Below are positions 6,134-15,674 of a stretch of DNA of 64,000 bases, piece after piece. A program made the position numbers and the translations under genes. Each line of letters opens with the position of its first letter. Position 1 is the first letter of the stretch. The notes beneath the pieces are model-generated. The model was not told where the DNA came from, did not search any database, and saw nothing but the letters and a program-made list of their open reading frames with translations. Source of the DNA: Tenacibaculum aquimarinum (GTDB lineage Bacteria > Bacteroidota > Bacteroidia > Flavobacteriales > Flavobacteriaceae); assembly GCF_022478115.1 (NCBI RefSeq), contig NZ_JAKGSC010000001.1, positions 744,001 to 808,000 on the forward strand, given 5' to 3'.

Positions 6134-7408
6134 TTACTTCGGATATTTCTCAGCAATTTTATCCAAAGATAAATTATGAATGCTACCAACATGAGAATGT
6201 TGTTTTCCTAAATCTGGTTTATAAGTTCCTGCTTGTACTTGTCCGCCAATTTGTTGATACGCTTCTCTAAAAGACATGCCTTTAACTACTAAATTATTGA
6301 TAGAATCTACTGTAAATAAGTATTGGTATTTCTCATCATTCAAATCAATATCTTTTACAATTACTTGCTGAATTGAGTAATTAAAGATGTCTAAAATATC
6401 TTTAACATCTTCAAAAGCAGCAATAATATTTTCTTTTAATAATTGAAAATCTCTGTGATATCCTGTTGGTAAATTATTGGTGATTAATAACATTTCTGAA
6501 TGTAAAGCTTGAATTTTATTGCATTTTCCACGAATCAATTCAAAAACATCAGGGTTTTTCTTGTGTGGCATAATGCTACTTCCTGTTGTTAATTCATCTG
6601 GAAAAGAAATAAACCCAAAATTCTGACTCATATACAAACAAACATCCATTGCAAAACGAGACATTGTATTACACAACCCGCCTAAAGTAGCAGCAATAGA
6701 GCGTTCACTTTTTCCACGACTTAATTGCGCTGCAACTACATTGTATTTTAGTGTTGCAAACTCTAATTCTTTTGTTGTTAATTCTCTATCAATAGGAAAA
6801 GAAGAACCATAACCAGCTGCAGAACCTAAAGGATTTTGGTCTACAACTTTAGAAACTGCATTTAGCATATATACATCATCAATTAACAGTTCTGCGTATG
6901 CAGAAAACCATAATCCAAATGATGACGGCATTGCCACTTGTAAATGCGTGTAACCTGGTAAAAGACTTTCTTTGTGAGTTCCTGCTAAACCTAACAGTGT
7001 ATCAAAAAGTGTTTTTACTTTATCATTAACAATAGCTAAATTCTCTTTATAATACAATTGAAGCGCTACTAAAACTTGATCGTTTCTAGAACGAGCAGTG
7101 TGAATTTTCTTACCAACTTCACCTAGTTTATTCGTTAATTCCCATTCAATTTTAGAGTGTACGTCTTCAAAAGAAGGTTCAATAACAAAGGTTCCGTTTT
7201 CGATATCAACAGCTAATTCTTGCAAACCTTTTTTAAGGTCTTTTAATTCATCAGTAGTAATAATACCAATAGACTCTAGCATTATTGCGTGCGCCAAAGA
7301 AGCCTGAACATCATATTTTGCAATGTGAATATCAATTTCTCTATCATTACCAACTGTAAAGTTTTCTATTTGTTTATCTATTGAAAATCCTTTATCCCAA
7401 AGTTTCAT
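6134..7408 (-). CDS. argH: Argininosuccinate lyase
   Basis: Last step of arginine synthesis: argininosuccinate to arginine and fumarate. 424 residues, somewhat short but normal for this phylum. The fumarase/aspartase superfamily signature GSSIMPHKKNP is at 276-286 with the catalytic serine loop. TARSRND (104-110) and GYTHLQ (152-157, His155) are the other substrate-site regions. It is the last gene of the arginine operon. The 58-base gap to the preceding argE-like gene is the largest spacer near this end, and it holds a repeat-word element (7416-7457) that ends seven bases before the ATG. Confidence 0.96.
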   Translation of the reverse strand: MKLWDKGFSIDKQIENFTVGNDREIDIHIAKYDVQASLAHAIMLESIGIITTDELKDLKKGLQELAVDIENGTFVIEPSFEDVHSKIEWELTNKLGEVGKKIHTARSRNDQVLVALQLYYKENLAIVNDKVKTLFDTLLGLAGTHKESLLPGYTHLQVAMPSSFGLWFSAYAELLIDDVYMLNAVSKVVDQNPLGSAAGYGSSFPIDRELTTKELEFATLKYNVVAAQLSRGKSERSIAATLGGLCNTMSRFAMDVCLYMSQNFGFISFPDELTTGSSIMPHKKNPDVFELIRGKCNKIQALHSEMLLITNNLPTGYHRDFQLLKENIIAAFEDVKDILDIFNYSIQQVIVKDIDLNDEKYQYLFTVDSINNLVVKGMSFREAYQQIGGQVQAGTYKPDLGKQHSHVGSIHNLSLDKIAEKYPK

Positions 7409-7415
7409 AATTCTT

Positions 7416-7457
7416 GATGTTTAATCGTGTAAATGTTTATTTGTGTAATTGTTTTCG
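7416..7457 (-). repeat. Spacer of short AT-rich repeat words upstream of argH
   Basis: Read on the minus strand, the spacer is made of words such as caattacac, aaataaaca and tacacgattaaacatc. The last 16-mer recurs exactly at 29415-29430, at nearly the same distance from the padR start. Confidence 0.6.
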
Positions 7458-7466
7458 CTTTGTCTT

Positions 7467-8534
7467 TTAAGCAATTACTCTATTTAACAACTCAACGTAT
7501 ATTTTAATTCCTTCTTCAATTTCAGCTAAATAAATAAATTCATTCGCAGAATGTGAACGTGTGCTGTCTCCAGGACCTAATTTTAAAGATTGACAGGTTA
7601 ATACTGATTGATCTGATAAGGTTGGAGAACCATAGGTTTCTCTTCCCATTTCAATTCCTGCTTTTACTAAATCGTGTTCTGTAGAAATAGAAGACGAATT
7701 TAATCGTAAACTTCTTGGTGTTATTTTGGTGCAAGGTGATTGTTCTTGTAATAAATCTGCAATTTCTTGATTAGAATATGCATCATTTACACGAACGTCC
7801 ACAACCAAATCTACATGTGCAGGAACAACATTGTGCTGTTTACCAGCGTTAATTTGAGTAACAGTCATTTTTACATCGCCTAAAGCTTCAGAAGTTTTCT
7901 CAAACTTAAAATCTTTAAACCATTGTAAAACTTCAATGGTATTGTAAATTGAATTGTTATTATTTGGATGTGCTGCATGACTTGGAGTTCCTTCTACAAC
8001 AGCATCAAAAACAACTAAACCTTTTTCTGCAACTGCTAAGTTCATTAAAGTGGGTTCTCCAACAATGGCAACATCTACATGCGGAATTATAGAAAGCATA
8101 CTGTTTAATCCATCTGGACCACTACTTTCTTCTTCCGCAGAAGCCACAATTACCAAATTGTATTTTAGGTTTTCTTGCGCGTAAAAATTGGTAAAAGCTG
8201 CAATTAAAGAAACCAAACAACCACCAGCATCATTTGAACCTAAACCATATAATTTACCGTCTTCAACAATCGCTTTTAAAGGATCGTTTGTATAAGCAGA
8301 ATTAGGTTTTACTGTATCGTGATGAGAGTTTAGTAATAATGTTGGTTTGCTTTCATCAAAATATTTATTGGTTGCCCAAACGTTATTTTTAGTTCTTTTA
8401 AACGGAATTTCGTTCTCTATAAACCAAGTTTCAATAAGTTTGGCTGTATTTTCTTCTTCGGAAGAAAATGATTCTGTTTCAATCAAATTCTTTAAAAGTG
8501 AAATTGCGTTTTCTGTTAATTTTTCGATATTCAT
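7467..8534 (-). CDS. M20-family deacylase of the arginine pathway (argE-like; probable N-succinylcitrulline desuccinylase)
   Basis: Zinc amidohydrolase of the M20/DapE/ArgE family, 355 residues. Visible metal and catalytic motifs are SHHDTV (H71, D73), GSNDAGG (D102) and ASAEEE (catalytic Glu134 and metal ligand Glu135). In pathways that carbamoylate an acylated ornithine, the deacylase acts on acylcitrulline, releasing citrulline for ArgG. The position between argB and argH supports that role. The acyl group is inferred to be succinyl from residue 90 of the neighbouring carbamoyltransferase. The gene ends 58 bases before argH and begins one base after argB. The family assignment is firm; the exact substrate is inferred. 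Confidence 0.87.
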   Translation of the reverse strand: MNIEKLTENAISLLKNLIETESFSSEEENTAKLIETWFIENEIPFKRTKNNVWATNKYFDESKPTLLLNSHHDTVKPNSAYTNDPLKAIVEDGKLYGLGSNDAGGCLVSLIAAFTNFYAQENLKYNLVIVASAEEESSGPDGLNSMLSIIPHVDVAIVGEPTLMNLAVAEKGLVVFDAVVEGTPSHAAHPNNNNSIYNTIEVLQWFKDFKFEKTSEALGDVKMTVTQINAGKQHNVVPAHVDLVVDVRVNDAYSNQEIADLLQEQSPCTKITPRSLRLNSSSISTEHDLVKAGIEMGRETYGSPTLSDQSVLTCQSLKLGPGDSTRSHSANEFIYLAEIEEGIKIYVELLNRVIA

Positions 8535-8535
8535 T

Positions 8536-9312
8536 TTATAATGTAATAGTTGTAAAATTGTCGTTCTCTTTTGTTAACATAGCAGTGTTTCCAATATGTA
8601 CTTTAGATACTCCATTGTTTAAAGCATCAAAGCAATTATCTATTTTCGGAATCATTCCGTCAGTAATAATTTCAGTCGCTAATAATTCTTTATAGGTGTT
8701 AGAATTAATAGTTTTTATAACTGAATTTTTATCATTAAAATCTTTTAAAACACCGTTCAATTCAAAACAATAATAAATTGATGTATCATAAATTTTACTC
8801 ATTCCAACACCAATTGTACTTGCAATAGTATCTGCATTTGTGTTTAGTAATTGTCCGATTCCATCGTGCGTAATCGCACAAAAAACAGGCGTAAAATCCG
8901 CTTTAATTAATTTGTCTATTGAGTTAGTAGCAACCTCTTTCACATCACCAACAAAACCAAAGTCAACCTCTTTTACAGGTCTTTTTTCTGATTTTATACT
9001 ATTAATATCTGCACCTGTTAAACCAATAGCATCAATGTTTAAAGCTTGTAATTTAGCCACTACATTTTTATTAACCAAACCACCATAAACCATGGTAATT
9101 ACTTCTAAAGTTTCTGCATCTGTAATGCGTCTACCATTTACCATTTTAGATTCTATGCCCAATTTAGATGCAATGTGAGTTGCACGTTTTCCTCCACCAT
9201 GAACTAGAATTTTATTTCCTTCTAGATTAGAAAACAATTTAAGAAAAGCATTTAAAGAAGTTTCATCTTCAATAATATTTCCCCCAATTTTTATGATTGA
9301 TAGTTTTTCCAT
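8536..9312 (-). CDS. argB: N-acylglutamate kinase
   Basis: Amino-acid kinase family, 258 residues, second step of arginine synthesis (phosphorylation of N-acetyl- or N-succinyl-glutamate). The N-terminal KIGGN loop (8-12) and HGGGKRAT (38-45) are the nucleotide and acyl-substrate glycine motifs; GLTGAD and LNTNAD lie further on. The start MEKLSIIKIGG fits the family. It sits one base upstream of the argE-like gene. The 71-base gap to argF' on its 5' side carries a dispersed inverted repeat. If the pathway is succinylated, this enzyme must accept N-succinylglutamate. Confidence 0.94.
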   Translation of the reverse strand: MEKLSIIKIGGNIIEDETSLNAFLKLFSNLEGNKILVHGGGKRATHIASKLGIESKMVNGRRITDAETLEVITMVYGGLVNKNVVAKLQALNIDAIGLTGADINSIKSEKRPVKEVDFGFVGDVKEVATNSIDKLIKADFTPVFCAITHDGIGQLLNTNADTIASTIGVGMSKIYDTSIYYCFELNGVLKDFNDKNSVIKTINSNTYKELLATEIITDGMIPKIDNCFDALNNGVSKVHIGNTAMLTKENDNFTTITL

Positions 9313-9317
9313 AAGTG

Positions 9318-9370
9318 CTGAACTTGTTTCAGTATCTTTTTTTTATTGTTAGATTCTGAATCAAGTTCAG
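9318..9370. repeat. Dispersed inverted repeat (ctgaacttgtttcag family), copy 1
   Basis: Left arm ctgaacttgtttcag (9318-9332) and right arm ctgaatcaagttcag (9356-9370) are complementary at 14 of 15 positions around a T-rich loop. The same arms occur, perfectly matched, at 49918-49966, and a half copy lies near 57172. This copy interrupts the arg operon between argF' and argB. Confidence 0.8.
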
Positions 9371-9383
9371 AATTACGAAGACT

Positions 9384-10322
9384 TTACAAGTCTTCTAGAA
9401 TTTTTTTCAAAACCAATTGTGCAGCAAAAGTTCTATTATTTGCTTGTTCAATAACCAAAGAAGAATCACTATCTAAAACAGCATCTTCTACAACAACATT
9501 TCTTCTAACAGGCAAGCAATGCATAAATTTAGCTTGACTAATTTTTTCTTTAGTAATTAACCAATCTGAATCGGTTTTTAAAACCTTTCCGTATTCATCA
9601 TAAGAACTCCAATTTTTAGTATACACAAAATCTGCATCTTTAAAAGCTTCTTCTTGATTATGATAAATAGGTATGTCTTTCGTGATTTCTGAATTCAAAT
9701 TATATCCTTCAGGATTCGCAATTACAAAATCAACATCCATTTTTTGCATTACTTGTGTAAAACTATTGGCAACTGCATGTGGTAAAGCTTTAGTGTGTGG
9801 CGCCCAACTTAAAACAACTTTTGGCTTCTTTTTTGTTGAATTTTCAGCAATTGTAAGTGCATCTGTTAAACCTTGTAACGGATGACTTGTTGCGCTTTCC
9901 ATATTTATAATTGGTACAGAAGCATATTTTACAAAAGAATTTAAAACCTGTTCAGATTCGTCTTTCTCTTTGTCTGTTAAACTAGGAAAAGCCCTTACAG
10001 CAATAACATCACAATATTGAGAAACTACAGCTGCAGCTTCTTTAATATGCTCTGCAGTATTTCCATCCATAACGGTTCCATCTCCAAATTCTATTCCCCA
10101 AGCATCACCATAAACATTCATAACAATCGGATCCATTCCTAAATTTAAAGCTGCCTTTTGTGTACTTAAACGTGTACGTAAGCTTGAATTAAAGAATAAT
10201 AAACCTAACGTTTTATTTTCACCTAATTCTTTATCCTTTAAAGGATTTTCTTTTATTTTTTTAGCATCTTCAATCCATGAATTGATGTCGTCAATATCAT
10301 TTATATGTGTGTATTTTTTCAT
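9384..10322 (-). CDS. argF': N-acylornithine carbamoyltransferase, probably N-succinylornithine specific (ArgF')
   Basis: Carbamoylates an N-acylated ornithine, giving N-acylcitrulline. 312 residues. The carbamoyl-phosphate loop is SSLRTR (46-51); HPLQ (147-150) and HCLPVRR (268-274) are the other transcarbamylase signatures. The N-terminal half closely follows, from memory, the Bacteroides fragilis N-succinylornithine transcarbamylase (FFNSSLRTRLSTQKAALNLG). The selectivity residue is Glu92 in the acetylornithine enzyme of Xanthomonas and Pro90 in the B. fragilis enzyme. Here it is Ala90 (codon at 10053-10055, in MDGNTAEH). Replacing that Glu by small residues is reported to favour succinylornithine. 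It overlaps argD by four bases. Family certain; acyl preference inferred. Confidence 0.93.
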   Translation of the reverse strand: MKKYTHINDIDDINSWIEDAKKIKENPLKDKELGENKTLGLLFFNSSLRTRLSTQKAALNLGMDPIVMNVYGDAWGIEFGDGTVMDGNTAEHIKEAAAVVSQYCDVIAVRAFPSLTDKEKDESEQVLNSFVKYASVPIINMESATSHPLQGLTDALTIAENSTKKKPKVVLSWAPHTKALPHAVANSFTQVMQKMDVDFVIANPEGYNLNSEITKDIPIYHNQEEAFKDADFVYTKNWSSYDEYGKVLKTDSDWLITKEKISQAKFMHCLPVRRNVVVEDAVLDSDSSLVIEQANNRTFAAQLVLKKILEDL

Positions 10323-11446
10323 GATAATTCGATTTTCAAAGCTTTAAAAAATTGATCGATATGTTCTTTTTTAATCGTTAACGGTGGAAGAATTCTTAAT
10401 AAATTAGGGTTCTTTGCACTTCCTGTAAATATTTTATGCTGAAAAATTAAGTTTTTACGAAGTTCTGCAACTGGAAAATCAAACTCCAATCCTAACATTA
10501 AACCACGCCCTTTTATATTTTTTATTTCAGAAATTTCTTTAGCTTTTTCAATAAAATAAGTTGAAATTTCTTTAGCATTTTGCATTAAATTTTCTTCCTC
10601 AATTACCTCTAAAACAGTTGAAGAAGCTACACAAGCTAAATGATTTCCACCAAAAGTAGTTCCTAGTAGACCAAAAGAAGCTTTAACATCTGGATGAATT
10701 AAAATTCCGCCAATCGGAAAACCATTTCCCATCCCTTTTGCTATAGAAATAATATCTGGAGTAACATTGTATTTTTGAAAGGCAAAGAAATCTCCAGTTC
10801 TACCAAAACCAGATTGTACTTCATCTGCAATAAAACACGTACTGTATTTTTTACAAAGCGTGTTTATAGCTTCGTAAAACTCTGAGGTGCTTTCATCTAA
10901 ACCACCAACACCTTGTATAAATTCTATAATTACTGCACAAACATCGTTTTTAGCTAAAGAATTTTCCAGAGATTTTAAATCTCCTAGTTCTAAAATTTCA
11001 ACTTCTTGCTGTGCGTTAATTGGTGCAACAATTTTCGGATTATCTGTTGCAGCAACAGCTGCAGATGTTCTACCATGAAATCCGTTTTTAAAAGCAATCA
11101 CCTTTTTCTTTCCGTTATGAAAAGAAGCTAGTTTCAAAGCATTTTCGTTTGCTTCTGCTCCAGAATTACATAAAAATAATTGATAATCTTTACAACCGGA
11201 TAGTTTACCAAGCTTAGCTGCTAATGCTACTTGTAACGGATTCTGAATAGAATTACTATAAAACCCAATTTTAGCAACCTGTTCGCTAATGTTTTTTACA
11301 TATTTTGGATGCGAATGCCCAATAGAAATTACAGCGTGTCCGCCATATAAATCTAAATATTCGGTTTCATTTTCATCAAAAACATACACATCTTCTGCCT
11401 TTACAGGAGTAATGTCGAAAAGTGGATACACGTTAAATAAACTCAT
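10319..11446 (-). CDS. argD: N-acylornithine aminotransferase
   Basis: Class III PLP aminotransferase, 375 residues, converting N-acylglutamate semialdehyde to N-acylornithine with glutamate as donor. Motifs: NSGAEANE (94-101), NGFHGRT (121-127), DEVQSGFGRTG (208-218) and the PLP lysine K237 in SIAKGMGNGFPIGG. Overlaps of four bases with both argF' and proC indicate translational coupling. The operon context makes the arginine role very likely. The acyl group (acetyl or succinyl) cannot be read from this sequence. Confidence 0.95.
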   Translation of the reverse strand: MSLFNVYPLFDITPVKAEDVYVFDENETEYLDLYGGHAVISIGHSHPKYVKNISEQVAKIGFYSNSIQNPLQVALAAKLGKLSGCKDYQLFLCNSGAEANENALKLASFHNGKKKVIAFKNGFHGRTSAAVAATDNPKIVAPINAQQEVEILELGDLKSLENSLAKNDVCAVIIEFIQGVGGLDESTSEFYEAINTLCKKYSTCFIADEVQSGFGRTGDFFAFQKYNVTPDIISIAKGMGNGFPIGGILIHPDVKASFGLLGTTFGGNHLACVASSTVLEVIEEENLMQNAKEISTYFIEKAKEISEIKNIKGRGLMLGLEFDFPVAELRKNLIFQHKIFTGSAKNPNLLRILPPLTIKKEHIDQFFKALKIELS

Positions 11447-12243
11447 ATTTGTTCTTTTTTGATGTTATTAATTTTATTAAATGAAGCAACCATTCCTTGA
11501 ATTAAAGAAGAACTTAACCCTTTATGTTCCATTTCATTTAAACCTTCAATAGTACAACCTTGTGGTGTAGTAACTCTGTCAATTTCTTCTTCAGGATGAT
11601 TTCCATTTGTAATCAACAAATTAGCAGCTCCTTCACTTGTAAACATTGCCAATTCTTGTGCTTCTTTTGCATCAAAACCTAACTGAATTGCAGCTTGTGT
11701 GGTTGCTCTAATTAAGCGCATCCAAAAAGCAATTCCACTTGCACAAACCACGGTTGCTGCTTGCATTTGGCTCTCAGGAATACTCAAAGAATGTCCTAAA
11801 CGATTAAAAATAGCTTCCGCAATCTTAATACGTTTTTTACCTTGCTCATTACTACACAAACACGTCATCGATTTACCAACAGCAATTGCTGTATTTGGCA
11901 TAGCTCTGATAATAAATTTGTCTGCACCAACTATTCCTTCTATTTTAGGAATTAAGAAACCTGTAATTGTAGAAATTAAAACATGTTTTTCGGTTAAAAA
12001 AGACTTTACGTCATTTAAAATTGCTTCAAAATGAACAGGTTGAATTGCAAAAATAATAATGTCAGATTGTTTAACAGCTTCAATATTATCTGTAGTTAAA
12101 CGCACATTTTTATAACCATCAAACTCCTTTACTCCATCCAAATCTCTTTTGGTTAAGTATAAACTTGTAATTGCATTATTGGTAATTAAACCTTTTGCAA
12201 TAGATTTACCTAAATTTCCTGTTCCTATAATGGCTATTTTCAT
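11443..12243 (-). CDS. proC: Pyrroline-5-carboxylate reductase
   Basis: Last step of proline synthesis: NAD(P)H-dependent reduction of pyrroline-5-carboxylate. 266 residues with the N-terminal Rossmann motif IGTGNLGKS (6-14) and the C-terminal dimerisation domain, including TTPQGCTIEGLNEME, the family signature. It lies inside the arginine operon between argC and argD, overlapping argD by four bases, so proline and arginine synthesis are co-regulated here. A role on an acylated intermediate is conceivable from position alone, but nothing in the motifs suggests it. Confidence 0.93.
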   Translation of the reverse strand: MKIAIIGTGNLGKSIAKGLITNNAITSLYLTKRDLDGVKEFDGYKNVRLTTDNIEAVKQSDIIIFAIQPVHFEAILNDVKSFLTEKHVLISTITGFLIPKIEGIVGADKFIIRAMPNTAIAVGKSMTCLCSNEQGKKRIKIAEAIFNRLGHSLSIPESQMQAATVVCASGIAFWMRLIRATTQAAIQLGFDAKEAQELAMFTSEGAANLLITNGNHPEEEIDRVTTPQGCTIEGLNEMEHKGLSSSLIQGMVASFNKINNIKKEQI

Positions 12244-12254
12244 AGTTATATTCT

Positions 12255-13232
12255 TTAAAAATAATTCGCTTTTAATTGCAATCCTTCCGTTTCTTCAAAA
12301 CCATACATTAAATTTAAATTCTGAATTGCTGCTCCAGAAGCTCCTTTTAAAAGATTGTCTATTGTACTTGTTATTAGTAATTTATTGCCGTGCTTTTCTA
12401 ATTGCACCAAACATTTGTTTGTGTTTACAACTTGTTTTAAAAAGATGCTTTCATCAGAAACAATGGTAAAAGCAGCATCTTTATAATATTCTTTATAGAT
12501 TTTTTTAGCGTCTTCAAGAGAACCATCAAATTTTGTGTACGTTGTTGCAAAAATTCCTCTAGAAAAATCTCCTCTATTTGGCATAAAATTAATTTCAGAA
12601 TTAAAATCACTTTGTAACTGATTTACAGTCTGATTAATTTCTCCTAAATGTTGATGATTGAATGCTTTATAGTGAGAAAAATTATTATCTCTCCACGTAA
12701 AATGTGTTGTTGCAGAAAGTGAAGTTCCTGCACCAGTTGCTCCTGTAACTGCATTAATATGAACATCATCTTTTAACAAACCATTTGCTGCTAAAGGTAA
12801 AATTGCCAATTGCAAAGCCGTTGCAAAACAACCAGGATTTGCAATGTATTTAGCCTTTTTTATAGCTTCTTTATCTAGTTCAGGTAAACCATACACAAAT
12901 TCTTTTCCTTCAAAATTCTTATCGGCAAGTAATCTAAAATCGTTACTTAAATCAATGATTTTTGTGTTATCAGAAAAGCTATTTTTTTGTAAAAAAGCAG
13001 TTGAATTTCCGTGTCCTAAACATAAGAATAAAACATCTACATCGGCATTTATTTCACTTGTAAAGCTAATTTCCGTTGAACCTACCAAATCTTGATGAAC
13101 TTTATATAATTTGTTGCCAGCATTAGAAGTACTAAACACAAAATTAATGTTCGTTTCTGGGTGATTTAACAACAATCTAATTAATTCTCCAGCGGTATAA
13201 CCTGCTCCTCCTATAATTCCTACTTGTAACAT
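12255..13232 (-). CDS. argC: N-acyl-gamma-glutamyl-phosphate reductase
   Basis: NADPH-dependent reduction of N-acylglutamyl phosphate to the semialdehyde, third step of arginine synthesis. 325 residues. The N-terminal Rossmann motif is IGGAGYTAGEL (7-17). The catalytic cysteine is C135 in NPGCFATA. LSNDFRL and YGLPEL are also typical of the family. It is two bases from argG on one side and eleven from proC on the other. Confidence 0.96.
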   Translation of the reverse strand: MLQVGIIGGAGYTAGELIRLLLNHPETNINFVFSTSNAGNKLYKVHQDLVGSTEISFTSEINADVDVLFLCLGHGNSTAFLQKNSFSDNTKIIDLSNDFRLLADKNFEGKEFVYGLPELDKEAIKKAKYIANPGCFATALQLAILPLAANGLLKDDVHINAVTGATGAGTSLSATTHFTWRDNNFSHYKAFNHQHLGEINQTVNQLQSDFNSEINFMPNRGDFSRGIFATTYTKFDGSLEDAKKIYKEYYKDAAFTIVSDESIFLKQVVNTNKCLVQLEKHGNKLLITSTIDNLLKGASGAAIQNLNLMYGFEETEGLQLKANYF

Positions 13233-13234
13233 AG

Positions 13235-14413
13235 TTATGAGTTGTTTACTTGTCTATAAATTTTGTTCTGATTTCCTATAATTTTGATAAAACCTTTAGC
13301 ATCATCTGCTGTCCAAGCTTTATTTTCTTCACCATACGTACTAAATGCGCTAGACATTAAATCGTGTTTTGATACAATACCATCTAAAGTAAAGTGATAC
13401 GGTTTTAAAGAAACTATAACATTACCAGAAACCATTTTTTGCGAACTTTGTAAAAAAGCTTCCGTATCTCTCATTACAGGATCTAAATATTGACCTTCGT
13501 GTAAATGCATTCCGTAAAAACTAGATAAATATTCTTTGTGTTGTAATTGCCATTTTGTTAAGGTATGTTTCTCTAATAAATGATGTGCTTTTACTGTAAT
13601 TAAAGCAGCTGCAGCTTCAAAACCAACTCTACCTTTTGTACCAACAATAGTATCTCCAACATGAATATCTCTACCAATTGCAAATTTTGATGCAATATTA
13701 TTTAGGTTTTCTATATTCACTTCTGGTGCATTTTCTTGTCCGTTTAAAGCAACAAACTCACCATTTTTAAATGTCAATGTTACTTTTTCTTCACCTTCTT
13801 TTTCTAATTGAGAAGGATATGCTTCACTTGGTAAAGGCTTTTCAGACTTTAAAGTTTCAACGCCACCAACACTTGTTCCCCAAAGGCCTTTATTTACAGA
13901 ATATTTAGATTTTTCCCAATTCATGTCAATTCCTTCAGATTTTAAGTAATCTATTTCTTCTTGTCTGGCTAGTTTTTGATCTCTAATTGGTGTAATAATT
14001 TTAATATTTGGTGCCAATGTTTGAAAAATCATATCAAATCTTACTTGGTCGTTACCAGCTCCAGTACTTCCATGTGCAATATATTCTGCATCTATACTTT
14101 TTGCATATTCAATAATTTCAATGGCTTGTATAATTCTTTCTGCACTTACAGAAAGCGGATAGGTACTATTTTTTAATACGTTACCAAAAATTAAATACTT
14201 AACTACTTTGTTATAAAATGTTGCAACCGCATCAATATTTTTATAAGTTGTAACACCCATTTTATAAGCGTTACTTTCTATATGTTTAATCTCCTCAGTT
14301 GTAAAACCTCCTGTATTTACACTAACAGCGTGTACATCATATTCTTTTGATAAACTTACTGCACAATAAGAAGTGTCTAAACCACCACTGTAAGCTATTA
14401 CTAATTTTTTCAT
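13235..14413 (-). CDS. argG: Argininosuccinate synthase
   Basis: ATP-dependent condensation of citrulline and aspartate. 392 residues, normal size. The ATP pyrophosphatase P-loop AYSGGLDTSY is at 7-16; HGSTGAGNDQVRFD and the C-terminal FYGMHLHEGQYLDP region follow. Its start overlaps the end of the preceding acyltransferase gene by four bases, and argC starts two bases after its stop. The paralogue type is the somewhat diverged one usual in Bacteroidetes. Confidence 0.96.
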   Translation of the reverse strand: MKKLVIAYSGGLDTSYCAVSLSKEYDVHAVSVNTGGFTTEEIKHIESNAYKMGVTTYKNIDAVATFYNKVVKYLIFGNVLKNSTYPLSVSAERIIQAIEIIEYAKSIDAEYIAHGSTGAGNDQVRFDMIFQTLAPNIKIITPIRDQKLARQEEIDYLKSEGIDMNWEKSKYSVNKGLWGTSVGGVETLKSEKPLPSEAYPSQLEKEGEEKVTLTFKNGEFVALNGQENAPEVNIENLNNIASKFAIGRDIHVGDTIVGTKGRVGFEAAAALITVKAHHLLEKHTLTKWQLQHKEYLSSFYGMHLHEGQYLDPVMRDTEAFLQSSQKMVSGNVIVSLKPYHFTLDGIVSKHDLMSSAFSTYGEENKAWTADDAKGFIKIIGNQNKIYRQVNNS

Positions 14414-15033
14414 TTTTTATCTTTTTTAAGGAACATAGATTGTTTAATGTTTTTTAATCTTGTCCATACTTTTTTATCGTGTTTTTTTGTTTCATTACCT
14501 GCTTTTTCTTTTTTAGCAGGATCGAACAACATTCCTGTACACAAACACATTTTTTGTTCAGTTCTGGTTAATACATCAAAATTTTTGCACGTTTGACAAC
14601 CATTCCAAAAGGATTGATCATCTGTTAGCTCCGAAAAAGTTACAGGTTTGTAACCTAAATCACTATTTAATTTCATTACAGCTAAACCTGTGGTAATACT
14701 AAACACTTTAGCATTGGGGAATTTAGTTCTAGAGTGTTCAAAAATTTTCTTTTTAATTTTTTTAGCTAAGCCAATATTTCTAAAATCTGGATGAACAATT
14801 AAACCAGAATTAGCTACAAATTTTCCATGACTCCATTGTTCTATATAACAAAATCCAGCAAATTTTTCGCCATCTAAAGCAATAACAGCATTACCGTTTT
14901 CTATTTTAGTAATAATGTATTCTGGTTTACGTTTTGCAATACCAGTTCCTCTAACTTTTGCTGCGTTTGCTATAGTGTCGCAAATAATTTCTGCGTAAAT
15001 ACTATGTGATTTATTAGCAATAACAATTTCCAT
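14410..15033 (-). CDS. GNAT-family acyltransferase, candidate N-acylglutamate synthase, first gene of the arg operon
   Basis: 207-residue GNAT fold protein. The acyl-CoA-binding region is VHPDFRNIGLAKKI (about 80-93). The C-terminal extension carries four cysteines, C146 and C149 (CQTC) and C163 and C165 (CLC), spaced like a small metal site, then a Lys-rich tail. No argA or argJ homologue occurs in the operon, so this gene is the natural candidate for acylating glutamate, with acetyl-CoA or, given the ArgF' signature, succinyl-CoA. It is the first structural gene after the two arginine leader ORFs and overlaps argG by four bases. Fold assignment good; catalytic role inferred from context only. 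Confidence 0.75.
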   Translation of the reverse strand: MEIVIANKSHSIYAEIICDTIANAAKVRGTGIAKRKPEYIITKIENGNAVIALDGEKFAGFCYIEQWSHGKFVANSGLIVHPDFRNIGLAKKIKKKIFEHSRTKFPNAKVFSITTGLAVMKLNSDLGYKPVTFSELTDDQSFWNGCQTCKNFDVLTRTEQKMCLCTGMLFDPAKKEKAGNETKKHDKKVWTRLKNIKQSMFLKKDKK

Positions 15034-15115
15034 TGTAATTGATGTTTTAAATTAATTGTAATTGGTTCTTTTGGGTAGTAGAACTGGACTCGCCTAAGCT
15101 CTGTAGATAAAAATA

Positions 15116-15128
15116 CACCCTAAGGGCG
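15116..15128 (-). promoter_or_regulatory. Small hairpin over the end of arginine leader 2, followed by a U-rich stretch
   Basis: On the minus strand, cgccc-tta-gggtg forms five pairs (one G-U) and is followed by tattttta (15115-15108). It overlaps the last Arg codon, the Pro codon and the stop codon of leader 2. It could be a weak terminator or pause that a ribosome finishing the leader would cover. It is too short to call a terminator with confidence. Confidence 0.35.
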
Positions 15129-15215
15129 GCGGCGAAAAATTGGTCGAATACCTTCTCTGTTATTATTTTTAATAACAGTGTTTAATAATAAGAAGAAGTG
15201 TGATGAATTGTTCAT
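15120..15215 (-). CDS. Arginine leader peptide 2 (31 residues, ends FRRRP)
   Basis: Short ORF ATG to TAG, 31 codons, starting MNNSSHFFLLLN and ending REGIRPIFRRRP. Arginine is at positions 20, 24, 28, 29 and 30. The final run uses three consecutive CGC codons, whereas most Arg codons in neighbouring genes are AGA or CGT. It lies 86 bases upstream of the acyltransferase start, on the same strand and in the same transcript as the arg operon. A hairpin (ctgttatt/aataacag, 15157-15178) lies within the ORF and another small one covers its end. Inferred role: translation-dependent sensing of arginyl-tRNA. Expression is not shown by sequence alone. Confidence 0.75.
   Translation of the reverse strand: MNNSSHFFLLLNTVIKNNNREGIRPIFRRRP
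15157..15178 (-). promoter_or_regulatory. Hairpin inside arginine leader 2
   Basis: Eight-base perfect arms (ctgttatt and aataacag) around a six-base loop, just upstream of the arginine codons of leader 2. It may act as a pause hairpin. No T-run follows on either strand. Confidence 0.45.
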
Positions 15216-15269
15216 TGTGAAAAAATAAAAAATAAAAACTATTAACTAAATTGCATGTAAAGTAGTGCA

Positions 15270-15335
15270 TTAGCGGCGTCGTTTACCTGTTGGTAAATAT
15301 GCGGGTATTATGTTTTTATTTAATGATTTAATCAT
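15270..15335 (-). CDS. Arginine leader peptide 1 (21 residues, ends GKRRR-stop)
   Basis: Short ORF ATG to TAA starting MIKSLNKNIIPAY and ending PTGKRRR, the last three codons being CGA CGC CGC directly before the stop. It begins about 30 bases downstream of a perfect -7 element (15366-15373), as expected for the first ORF of a transcript. The codons just before the Arg run contain a perfect hairpin, tttacc-aaca-ggtaaa (15282-15297). GC-rich Arg codons stand out in an AT-rich spacer. Leader 2 starts 54 bases after its stop. Two independent ORFs ending in Arg triplets on one strand make chance unlikely. Confidence 0.75.
   Translation of the reverse strand: MIKSLNKNIIPAYLPTGKRRR
15282..15297 (-). 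promoter_or_regulatory. Hairpin immediately before the Arg codons of leader 1
   Basis: Six-base perfect arms tttacc/ggtaaa with a four-base loop. It sits over the Leu-Pro-Thr-Gly-Lys codons directly upstream of the three Arg codons. Confidence 0.5.
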
Positions 15336-15365
15336 GCTGTAAATCTATAACGTTTTTTTTTCTAA

Positions 15366-15373
15366 CAAAAATA
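15366..15373 (-). promoter_or_regulatory. Promoter -7 element of the arg operon
   Basis: TATTTTTG on the minus strand matches the Bacteroidetes consensus TAnnTTTG exactly. It lies 30 bases upstream of leader 1, giving a 5' leader of about 330 nucleotides before the first structural gene. No clear -33 TTG is seen. Confidence 0.6.
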
Positions 15374-15541
15374 AATCTAATTTATTTTTCATAAAACATT
15401 GATTTTTACGAATATGAAAAAAAATAACCTCTTTTTTAATTAATTTAAAAATAAGAAATGATATTTAATTATTTTTTTGAGAAATTAAAAATAATTCACT
15501 AAAATATTGATATTGGTTAGGATTTTTAAGTTATTTATTTA

Positions 15542-15558: not shown

Positions 15559-15621
15559 ATGAAAAATCGAATAATAAATATCATTTCTATTATTGTCTTT
15601 GTAATTTTTTTGCAAGGATAG
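15559..15621 (+). CDS. ilv operon leader peptide (20 residues, Ile/Val-rich)
   Basis: ATG-to-TAG ORF of 20 codons. The core IINIISIIVFVIFL contains seven Ile, two Val and a Leu. It precedes an intrinsic terminator at 15643-15674 and then the ilvDBNCA genes, the arrangement of a classical branched-chain amino-acid attenuator. When charged Ile or Val tRNA is scarce, a ribosome would stall here. The segment just after the Gly codon (aggaaatgtc, 15620-15629) resembles the 3' arm of the terminator and could pair with its 5' arm as an antiterminator. Confidence 0.8.
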   Translation: MKNRIINIISIIVFVIFLQG

Positions 15622-15642
15622 GAAATGTCGTTTTAAATTATG

Positions 15643-15674
15643 AAAGGCTTCCTGTATTTCAGGAAGTCTTTTTT
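15643..15674 (+). terminator. ilv attenuator terminator
   Basis: Stem ggcttcctg/caggaagtc (nine pairs, one G-U) with loop tattt and six T after it, with additional A/T pairs at the base. It lies 22 bases after the leader stop and about 200 bases before ilvD, so it must be read through for operon expression. Confidence 0.85.

Follow-up and report, generated by a model that had tools for sequence, protein, structure and literature searches.

Repression by ArgR is the textbook mode of control for arginine operons, and the arginine locus of Tenacibaculum aquimarinum raises the question of how such an operon might be controlled in a genome where this repressor is not detected. A search with the ArgR domain (PF01316) recovered no member from the organism's own genome; of 14 named genomes serving as a control, 9 gave a match. 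Across 299 genomes of the family the search returned two matches, both marginal and lying inside frames of 312 residues. A preliminary description of the window (the entire 64,000-nucleotide stretch of DNA analyzed here) had drawn attention to two short ORFs in front of the operon, each ending in an arginine run, and had read them as tandem leader peptides of an attenuator. The comparative analysis presented below suggests that the two Arg-rich frames are probably ribosome-read gauges of arginine set in series, which likely do the job performed elsewhere by ArgR.

The arginine operon and its upstream region

The region in question is the minus-strand stretch between ilvD and a GNAT gene with its start at 15033, with which the operon opens:

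14410..15033, minus strand: GNAT acetyltransferase gene (PF00583), first of the arg operon, by domain match
6134..14413, minus strand: argG, argC, proC, argD, an N-acetylornithine carbamoyltransferase gene, argB, an ArgE/DapE-type (argE-like) deacylase gene and argH, by best NCBIfam matches

The scores of argG, argD and the deacylase gene fall under the curated NCBIfam cut-offs. On the plus strand, in front of ilvD, is an ilv-type leader, MKNRIINIISIIVFVIFLQG with its stop codon (window 15559-15672), followed by a strong terminator with a 13-pair stem and a U tract (15642-15672); together these form an ordinary branched-chain attenuator positioned back to back with the arg leaders.

The two reported ORFs are indeed found as described in the ilvD-GNAT interval, and a hairpin lies further downstream:

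15270..15335, minus strand: leader 1 ORF, MIKSLNKNIIPAYLPTGKRRR, ending GKRRR-stop; counterpart in 56 of 79 related loci
15120..15215, minus strand: leader 2 ORF, MNNSSHFFLLLNTVIKNNNREGIRPIFRRRP, ending IRPIFRRRP-stop; frame open in all 79 loci
15080..15102, minus strand: hairpin HP2, with the bulged-A tip AGGCGAGUCC at 15095-15086, by covariation and covariance model

Defining an Arg-ended ORF as one with an ATG start, at least eight codons and at least three arginines among its last five residues, none of 5000 dinucleotide shuffles of 15034-15400 contained two or more, and 12 contained at least one. HP2 (15102-15080), situated just outside the segment covered by the preliminary description and overlooked there, emerged as the most conserved part of the region.

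Comparative sets of loci

Two sets of loci were examined. The first comprises L001-L018, all matches among 30 relatives; L019-L047, the best new matches among the 299 family genomes; and L048-L087, 40 further entries of the same list, the next 20 in order and then 20 picked by hand. In 79 of the 87 loci, a search of the 200 nt preceding the GNAT gene recovered the HP2 tip, and counts given below out of 79 refer to them. The remaining eight are L015-L018, which belong to other families, L041, which has the tip at a contig edge but stays out of the 79, L053, with a weak model match, L061, with a degenerate tip and a model match at 3.1e-6, and L069, which is degenerate and without a model match. 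As the 79 loci were chosen by the HP2 tip pattern, and leader 2 was anchored on a CGC codon plus CC, AC or CT, the presence of the tip and of the last CGC in this set follows from the selection itself. For the second set, 171 relatives in named genomes were ranked by similarity to the GNAT protein of the window and the best 80 were kept; this set, which partly overlaps the first, includes Lacinutrix, Olleya, Psychroserpens, Winogradskyella, Polaribacter, Tenacibaculum, Kordia, Gelidibacter, Nonlabens, Psychroflexus and other genera. These 80 named loci furnish the less biased evidence on the tip, though the covariance model R1, which spans HP1 (see below) and HP2 and was trained on 30 loci out of the 37 whose HP2 loop has one extra base, itself favours that tip.

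Leader 1 and the arg promoter

Comparison with relatives, which had been proposed as the check on the two ORFs, bore both of them out: leader 2 retains its frame throughout, leader 1 is found in most loci, and the associated hairpins covary. A raw count of 64 leader 1 calls in the 79 loci was reduced to 56 by dropping eight that were spurious by eye (L064, L068, L071, L073, L078, L080, L081 and L083), and by the same filter leader 1 is absent in 23 loci, although short leader 1-like ORFs with one Arg in L010 and L014 were overlooked by it. Among the best 80 of the 171 named relatives, 73 have a counterpart; MNSQKNKIRTFSPGLRLRNRRR is an example from the relatives. Both leaders favour CGC, a rare arginine codon. 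In the relatives' loci it makes up 160 of the 280 Arg codons of leader 1, and 155 of the 313 in leader 2 tails, 79 of the latter being CGC by construction of the anchor; for comparison, the corresponding counts are 12 of 302 Arg codons for GNAT genes taken from 42 of the loci and 27 of 524 for the long ORFs of the window.

The location of the promoter could be revised on the same comparative grounds:

15340..15347, minus strand: TAGATTTA, probable -7 box of the arg promoter, from the box position in relatives
15366..15373, minus strand: TATTTTTG, the box named by the preliminary description, more likely within the -33 region, from the conserved box

In 47 of the 56 loci with leader 1, a TAnnTTT box starts 12-14 nt upstream of the leader 1 ATG, and its window counterpart is TAGATTTA at 15347-15340. 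Hence, the TAnnTTTG string at 15373-15366 exists as reported but was probably the wrong choice of box. The same spacing implies that the RNA would begin with almost no untranslated lead before leader 1.

The secondary structures around leader 1 are as follows:

15312..15321, minus strand: 5' arm of stem P1, inside leader 1, by an arm-exchange test in relatives
15282..15297, minus strand: P2 hairpin, UUUACC-AACA-GGUAAA, just upstream of the Arg codons, by a covarying window in relatives
15246..15273, minus strand: P3 hairpin, its 5' arm starting where leader 1 has its last Arg codon and its stop, by a covarying window in relatives
15220..15239, minus strand: 3' arm of P1 and U-rich tract, predicted terminator 1, by the closing stem in relatives

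A hairpin had been reported ahead of each Arg run, and both are present, namely P2 (15297-15282) in leader 1 and HP0 (15178-15157) in leader 2. The reported set was incomplete in that it missed P1, the stem linking leader 1 with the U-rich tract that precedes leader 2. A stem closing onto this tract can be drawn in all 56 leader 1 loci (as a lowest-energy choice, without a shuffle control), starting at codons 3 to 10 of leader 1 in 41 of them, and at least six T in eight follow in 46. When the arms of P1 were exchanged among 23 lineages, own partners gave a mean of -8.9 kcal/mol as against -6.0 for exchanged ones (p 5e-5), with the own partner being best in just 5 of the 23 lineages and having a median rank of 4. 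A window-pair covariation scan over 33 lineages returned z -6.3 for P1, -5.7 to -7.8 for P2 and -4.2 for P3; 20 of its 243 window pairs, some of them overlapping, pass -4. RNAalifold on an alignment of 30 leader 1 regions (A3, drawn from the 34 loci with a KI or RI motif) yielded no consensus structure; P1 is nearly invariant within this group. In the window P1 is made of A-U pairs except for one G-C pair, and a simple terminator scan of the window did not report it with its U tract. Leader 1 fits a predicted terminator logic, in which the 5' arm of the closing stem lies within coding RNA and would be disturbed by a ribosome halted on the Arg codons, and it may be a member of the class of ribosome-mediated attenuators.

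Leader 2: reading frame and peptide

In all 79 loci the leader 2 frame is open for at least 22 codons upstream of the last Arg codon. Of the last 13 codons, 30 percent encode arginine; at least three arginines are present in 71 of the 79 tails, and the tail of L009 has a single Arg codon. Relative to the anchor codon, Arg occurs at -1 in 66, at -6 in 46 and at -5 in 38 of the 79 loci, and Phe at -3 in 43. The stop codon comes two codons past the anchor in 64 loci, as TAA (53), TAG (10) or TGA (1), and 4-12 codons past it in the other 15. The start is less regular: an in-frame ATG is absent in 34 of the 79 loci, and in 10 more the sole ATG found yields an MRRxFPRRP-type peptide of just 8 to 12 residues.

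The partly conserved tail, V-R-R-x-F-P-R-R-P, with a proline immediately before the stop in 64 of the 79 loci, raises the alternative that leader 2 is an arrest peptide, whose FPRRP-stop ending would stall the ribosome when free arginine is present, as in TnaC or SpeFL, the stalled ribosome then being read by the downstream hairpins or Rho. The lack of an intrinsic terminator after HP2 would suit such a device. However, the stop lies further on in the 15 loci just mentioned, the tail varies widely among loci, and the CGC bias suits the reading of codons rather than the sensing by a peptide, so that we consider this alternative quite unlikely.

A different proposal would make leader 1 the sole regulator, leaving leader 2 and its hairpins to serve another end such as mRNA stability. 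The clearer terminator logic of leader 1 speaks in its favour, but HP1 and HP2 are kept in the 23 loci in which the filter finds no leader 1, and leader 2 must hence act alone there. Further, in L080, L081, L083, L086 and L087, which are without leader 1, a TAnnTTT box is positioned 13-17 nt upstream of the leader 2 ATG. This alternative therefore appears highly improbable, and the interpretation of leader 2 as a codon-reading arginine gauge in its own right is retained below.

Conserved hairpins of leader 2

Besides HP2, two hairpins lie within or at the end of leader 2, and a model of the distal pair matches the window:

15157..15178, minus strand: HP0 hairpin within leader 2, upstream of its Arg codons, by covariation (z -8.1)
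15116..15128, minus strand: HP1 hairpin, CGCCC-UUA-GGGUG, containing the last Arg codon and the stop codon, by covariance model and terminator scan
15074..15153, minus strand: R1 match, E 1.5e-18, the window locus being one of the 30 training sequences

HP1 corresponds to the five-pair hairpin of the preliminary description (15128-15116) and is followed, as had been stated, by the U-rich TATTTTTATC. It holds the last Arg codon of the leader, and the stop codon falls in its loop in 64 of the 79 loci. A covariation scan of the leader 2 region over 46 lineages and 435 window pairs gave HP0 z -8.1 and HP2 z -6.5, with ten pairs passing -4 and none +4. HP1 scored only -3.0, because its sequence is nearly constant. 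Beyond HP0, HP2 and their shifted windows, nothing clear was found among the 435 pairs that could serve as a conserved competing (antiterminator) helix for leader 2; a further pair, formed by the start tract of leader 2 and the 3' arm of HP0 (z -4.2), may reflect composition. Mean folding z against dinucleotide shuffles was -1.6 for HP0, -1.9 for HP1, -1.2 for HP2 and +0.2 for the stretch after HP2. The pairs of HP1 and HP2 are formed in 96.9 percent of cases in an alignment of 30 sequences, with double changes at four pairs, and in 96.4 percent in one of 80 sequences fitted to the model, with double changes at five; further pair types in the latter do not exceed shuffles (68 of 500 reach the count).

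The tip of HP2 reads GG or GA, UGNGU, CC or UC in 80 of 80 named loci, with the bulged A in 79. In three Psychroflexus loci the second pair of the tip has changed from G-C to A-U with UGNGU unaltered, and where HP1 itself is altered (L071, L078, L079) the tip remained AGGUGAGUCC. Additionally, the distance from the last Arg codon to the HP2 loop is 30-36 nt in all 79 loci and 32-35 nt in 73. Given the usual size of a ribosome footprint, a ribosome at the stop codon in the HP1 loop would open HP1 and end just short of HP2.

The near-invariant tip and the nearly fixed distance between HP1 and HP2, along with the loose start codons of leader 2 and the presence of one such hairpin in the organism's own genome, might instead be taken to indicate a ligand- or protein-binding RNA, that is, a riboswitch or operator acting without translation of leader 2, whose frame would be open mainly because HP1 needs CGCCC. 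Against this reading stand the openness of the frame over at least 22 codons, the retention of Arg at -6 and -1 and Phe at -3 in synonymous codons, and the three different spellings of the stop codon within the HP1 loop; the synonymous spellings at -6 and -3 in particular point to selection on the peptide. A binding RNA independent of translation is accordingly an unlikely explanation, and the element is further considered as one in which leader 2 is translated.

Several roles for the hairpins were evaluated and set aside. HP2 is no intrinsic terminator, being followed by at least six T in the next 8 nt in 0 of 79 loci. Nor does HP2 appear to be a generic element, since the organism's own genome contains four matches to AGGYGNGTCC as against three to the reversed control, one of the four being, by eye, in this hairpin context. 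It is not explained as a site for the GNAT product, as two genomes with a dissimilar acetyltransferase still keep the element. No covariation was seen for a possible pseudoknot between GGUG of the HP2 loop and CGCC of the Arg/Pro codons, and the loop base N is independent of the base preceding CGCC. The GNAT start region was likewise discarded as a pairing partner of HP1 or HP2: ACATC between HP2 and the start codon is enriched (15 of 79 as against 5.1 from shuffles) without being conserved. At the gathering score Rfam gave 0 matches in the window, with Bacteroid-trp, Flavo-1, T-box and riboswitch models included, and for the leader at E 10 returned three unrelated matches at chance level. HP1 passed a lenient hairpin-plus-T test in 48 of the 79 loci; hence, the simplest view is that it would be a weak stop or pause held open by a ribosome standing at the final Arg codons or the stop codon. 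HP2 is, from its conservation pattern, a candidate recognition hairpin, probably bound by something specific to the arg operon.

Phyletic distribution of the element

R1 matched 80 of the 80 named loci and, at E 0.01 or better, 190 of the 299 family genomes; setting aside 12 with E 4e-5 to 0.0075 leaves 178 at 5.1e-6 or better. The element goes together with the arg operon: the GNAT gene is present in 176 of these 178 genomes (Fisher p 2.5e-55), and most matches directly precede it, as read from listed coordinates, not all of which were computed. In the remaining two, G113 and G181, the gene of another protein lies between the element and argG. A GNAT domain is present in the G181 protein, to which the G113 protein is 48 percent identical, and neither has detectable similarity to the window's GNAT (the direct comparison being of G113 only). 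In two family genomes (L144 454-1038, L145 555-1148) the arg operon thus opens with a GNAT-type protein lacking detectable similarity to the usual one, a possible replacement of the pathway's first enzyme. Outside the family, the best R1 match in a 395-genome sample of the phylum, searched with strict filters, was 2.1e-4, and nothing convincing was found.

Fourteen family genomes have the GNAT gene and no R1 match. When ten of these and nine more of genus g140 (probably Flavobacterium) were searched again, 18 of the 19 had a GNAT match. By eye, L128, L134, L135 and L137 have leaders of the Arg or RP type together with hairpins resembling HP1 or HP2, and upstream of the GNAT gene in L124, L125 and L136 are Arg-rich leaders of other design (with RRRIRE, RRRRCRE and YTRR endings), without HP1 and HP2, as though Arg leaders had arisen or changed repeatedly. 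Seven of the nine first GNAT matches in g140 (L126, L127 and L129-L133) share a different conserved leader, TCACGGACAA(N)nACTTCTCCCGAAGTACGGA, some 300 nt ahead of the GNAT gene; it has no Rfam match, and these loci are without the Arg leaders described here. In other families of the order (L015, L018, L123), RRP-type leaders are accompanied by an HP1-like hairpin and not by this HP2, and in L015 and L123 a hairpin with the loop UACGU stands at its place.

A model for arginine control

The predicted arginine attenuation is supported on comparative grounds by the retention of the ORFs in many genera, the covarying hairpins, their position between a conserved promoter box and the cognate operon, and the fact that ArgR was not found. 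To this extent the preliminary idea of attenuation by two Arg leaders stands; the part that does not is the picture of two copies of one device. On their predicted structures the leaders differ, leader 1 following a terminator logic and leader 2 ending in HP1 and HP2 with neither a strong terminator nor a conserved competing helix.

Transcription would start just upstream of leader 1, with a ribosome entering at once. With ample Arg-tRNA, the ribosome would reach the leader 1 stop and leave, whereupon P1 could form together with the U-rich tract and RNA polymerase would stop. With scarce Arg-tRNA, the ribosome would halt on the CGN codons and cover or distort the 5' side of P1, allowing the polymerase to continue. 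On leader 2, HP0 may pause the polymerase long enough for a ribosome to draw level. Once positioned on the final Arg codons or at the stop of leader 2, a ribosome would keep HP1 open; otherwise this short GC hairpin, often placed before U-rich RNA, would slow or stop the polymerase. HP2, just past the reach of a ribosome at that stop, would probably be recognized by an operon-specific factor. We tentatively raise the possibility that the leader 2 module represents a cis-regulatory RNA of a new class, in which an Arg-codon leader, a stop codon in a hairpin loop and HP2 at a near-fixed, ribosome-sized distance would read the state of the ribosome through a partner, and which together with leader 1 would replace ArgR across much of the family.

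In the family sample, there is almost no ArgR, and most arg operons have an Arg-codon leader with a structured RNA unmatched in Rfam, often behind a second Arg leader; this identifies how arginine synthesis is likely controlled in many marine bacteria. These bacteria mostly do without Shine-Dalgarno sites, and the locus offers a test bed for the coupling of transcription and translation in them. Further, HP2 is a small RNA hairpin with a near-invariant tip that could be used to fish for its partner.

Comparison with known systems

In the open-access literature searched, no description of these leaders was recognized. The MS2-type coat-protein operator is a hairpin with a stem, a bulged A, two G-C pairs and a small loop. 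HP2 has the same shape, with no relation being claimed, and differs in having the loop UGNGU and not the MS2 tetraloop. In the Salmonella mgtCBR leader region, the two leader ORFs respond to different signals. Its tandem attenuators (PMC3641672) resemble the arg leaders in placing two short ORFs in one leader region, but they do not belong to an amino-acid biosynthetic operon.

Bacteroid-trp RNA (RF01692), a predicted cis-regulatory RNA of Bacteroidetes (PMC2864571) and by name a trp leader, is comparable as a predicted element of the same phylum; it differs in that no Rfam match to it was obtained in the window or, at E 10, in the leader. For Flavobacterium psychrophilum, a member of the same family, clues to leader-peptide attenuation have been noted before amino-acid operons in general (PMC9723704), whereas the part of that account considered here names no arginine leader, and the seven g140 loci are without this element. 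The LEU element of actinobacterial leuA combines a leader ORF of control codons with a conserved RNA structure and no obvious terminator, and a regulatory protein has been suggested for it (PMC1262725). Leader 2 is likewise a codon-run ORF with conserved structure and without a strong terminator; the codon run of the LEU element pairs with the Shine-Dalgarno box, unlike the situation here, where pairing with the start region is not conserved. The trp, his and ilv attenuators share with the arg leaders a short ORF of cognate codons between promoter and operon and hairpins around the control codons, and leader 1, like them, ends at a predicted terminator. The present system differs from them in that its amino acid is arginine, that two leaders stand in series, and that leader 2, in lieu of a conserved terminator/antiterminator pair, has HP2.
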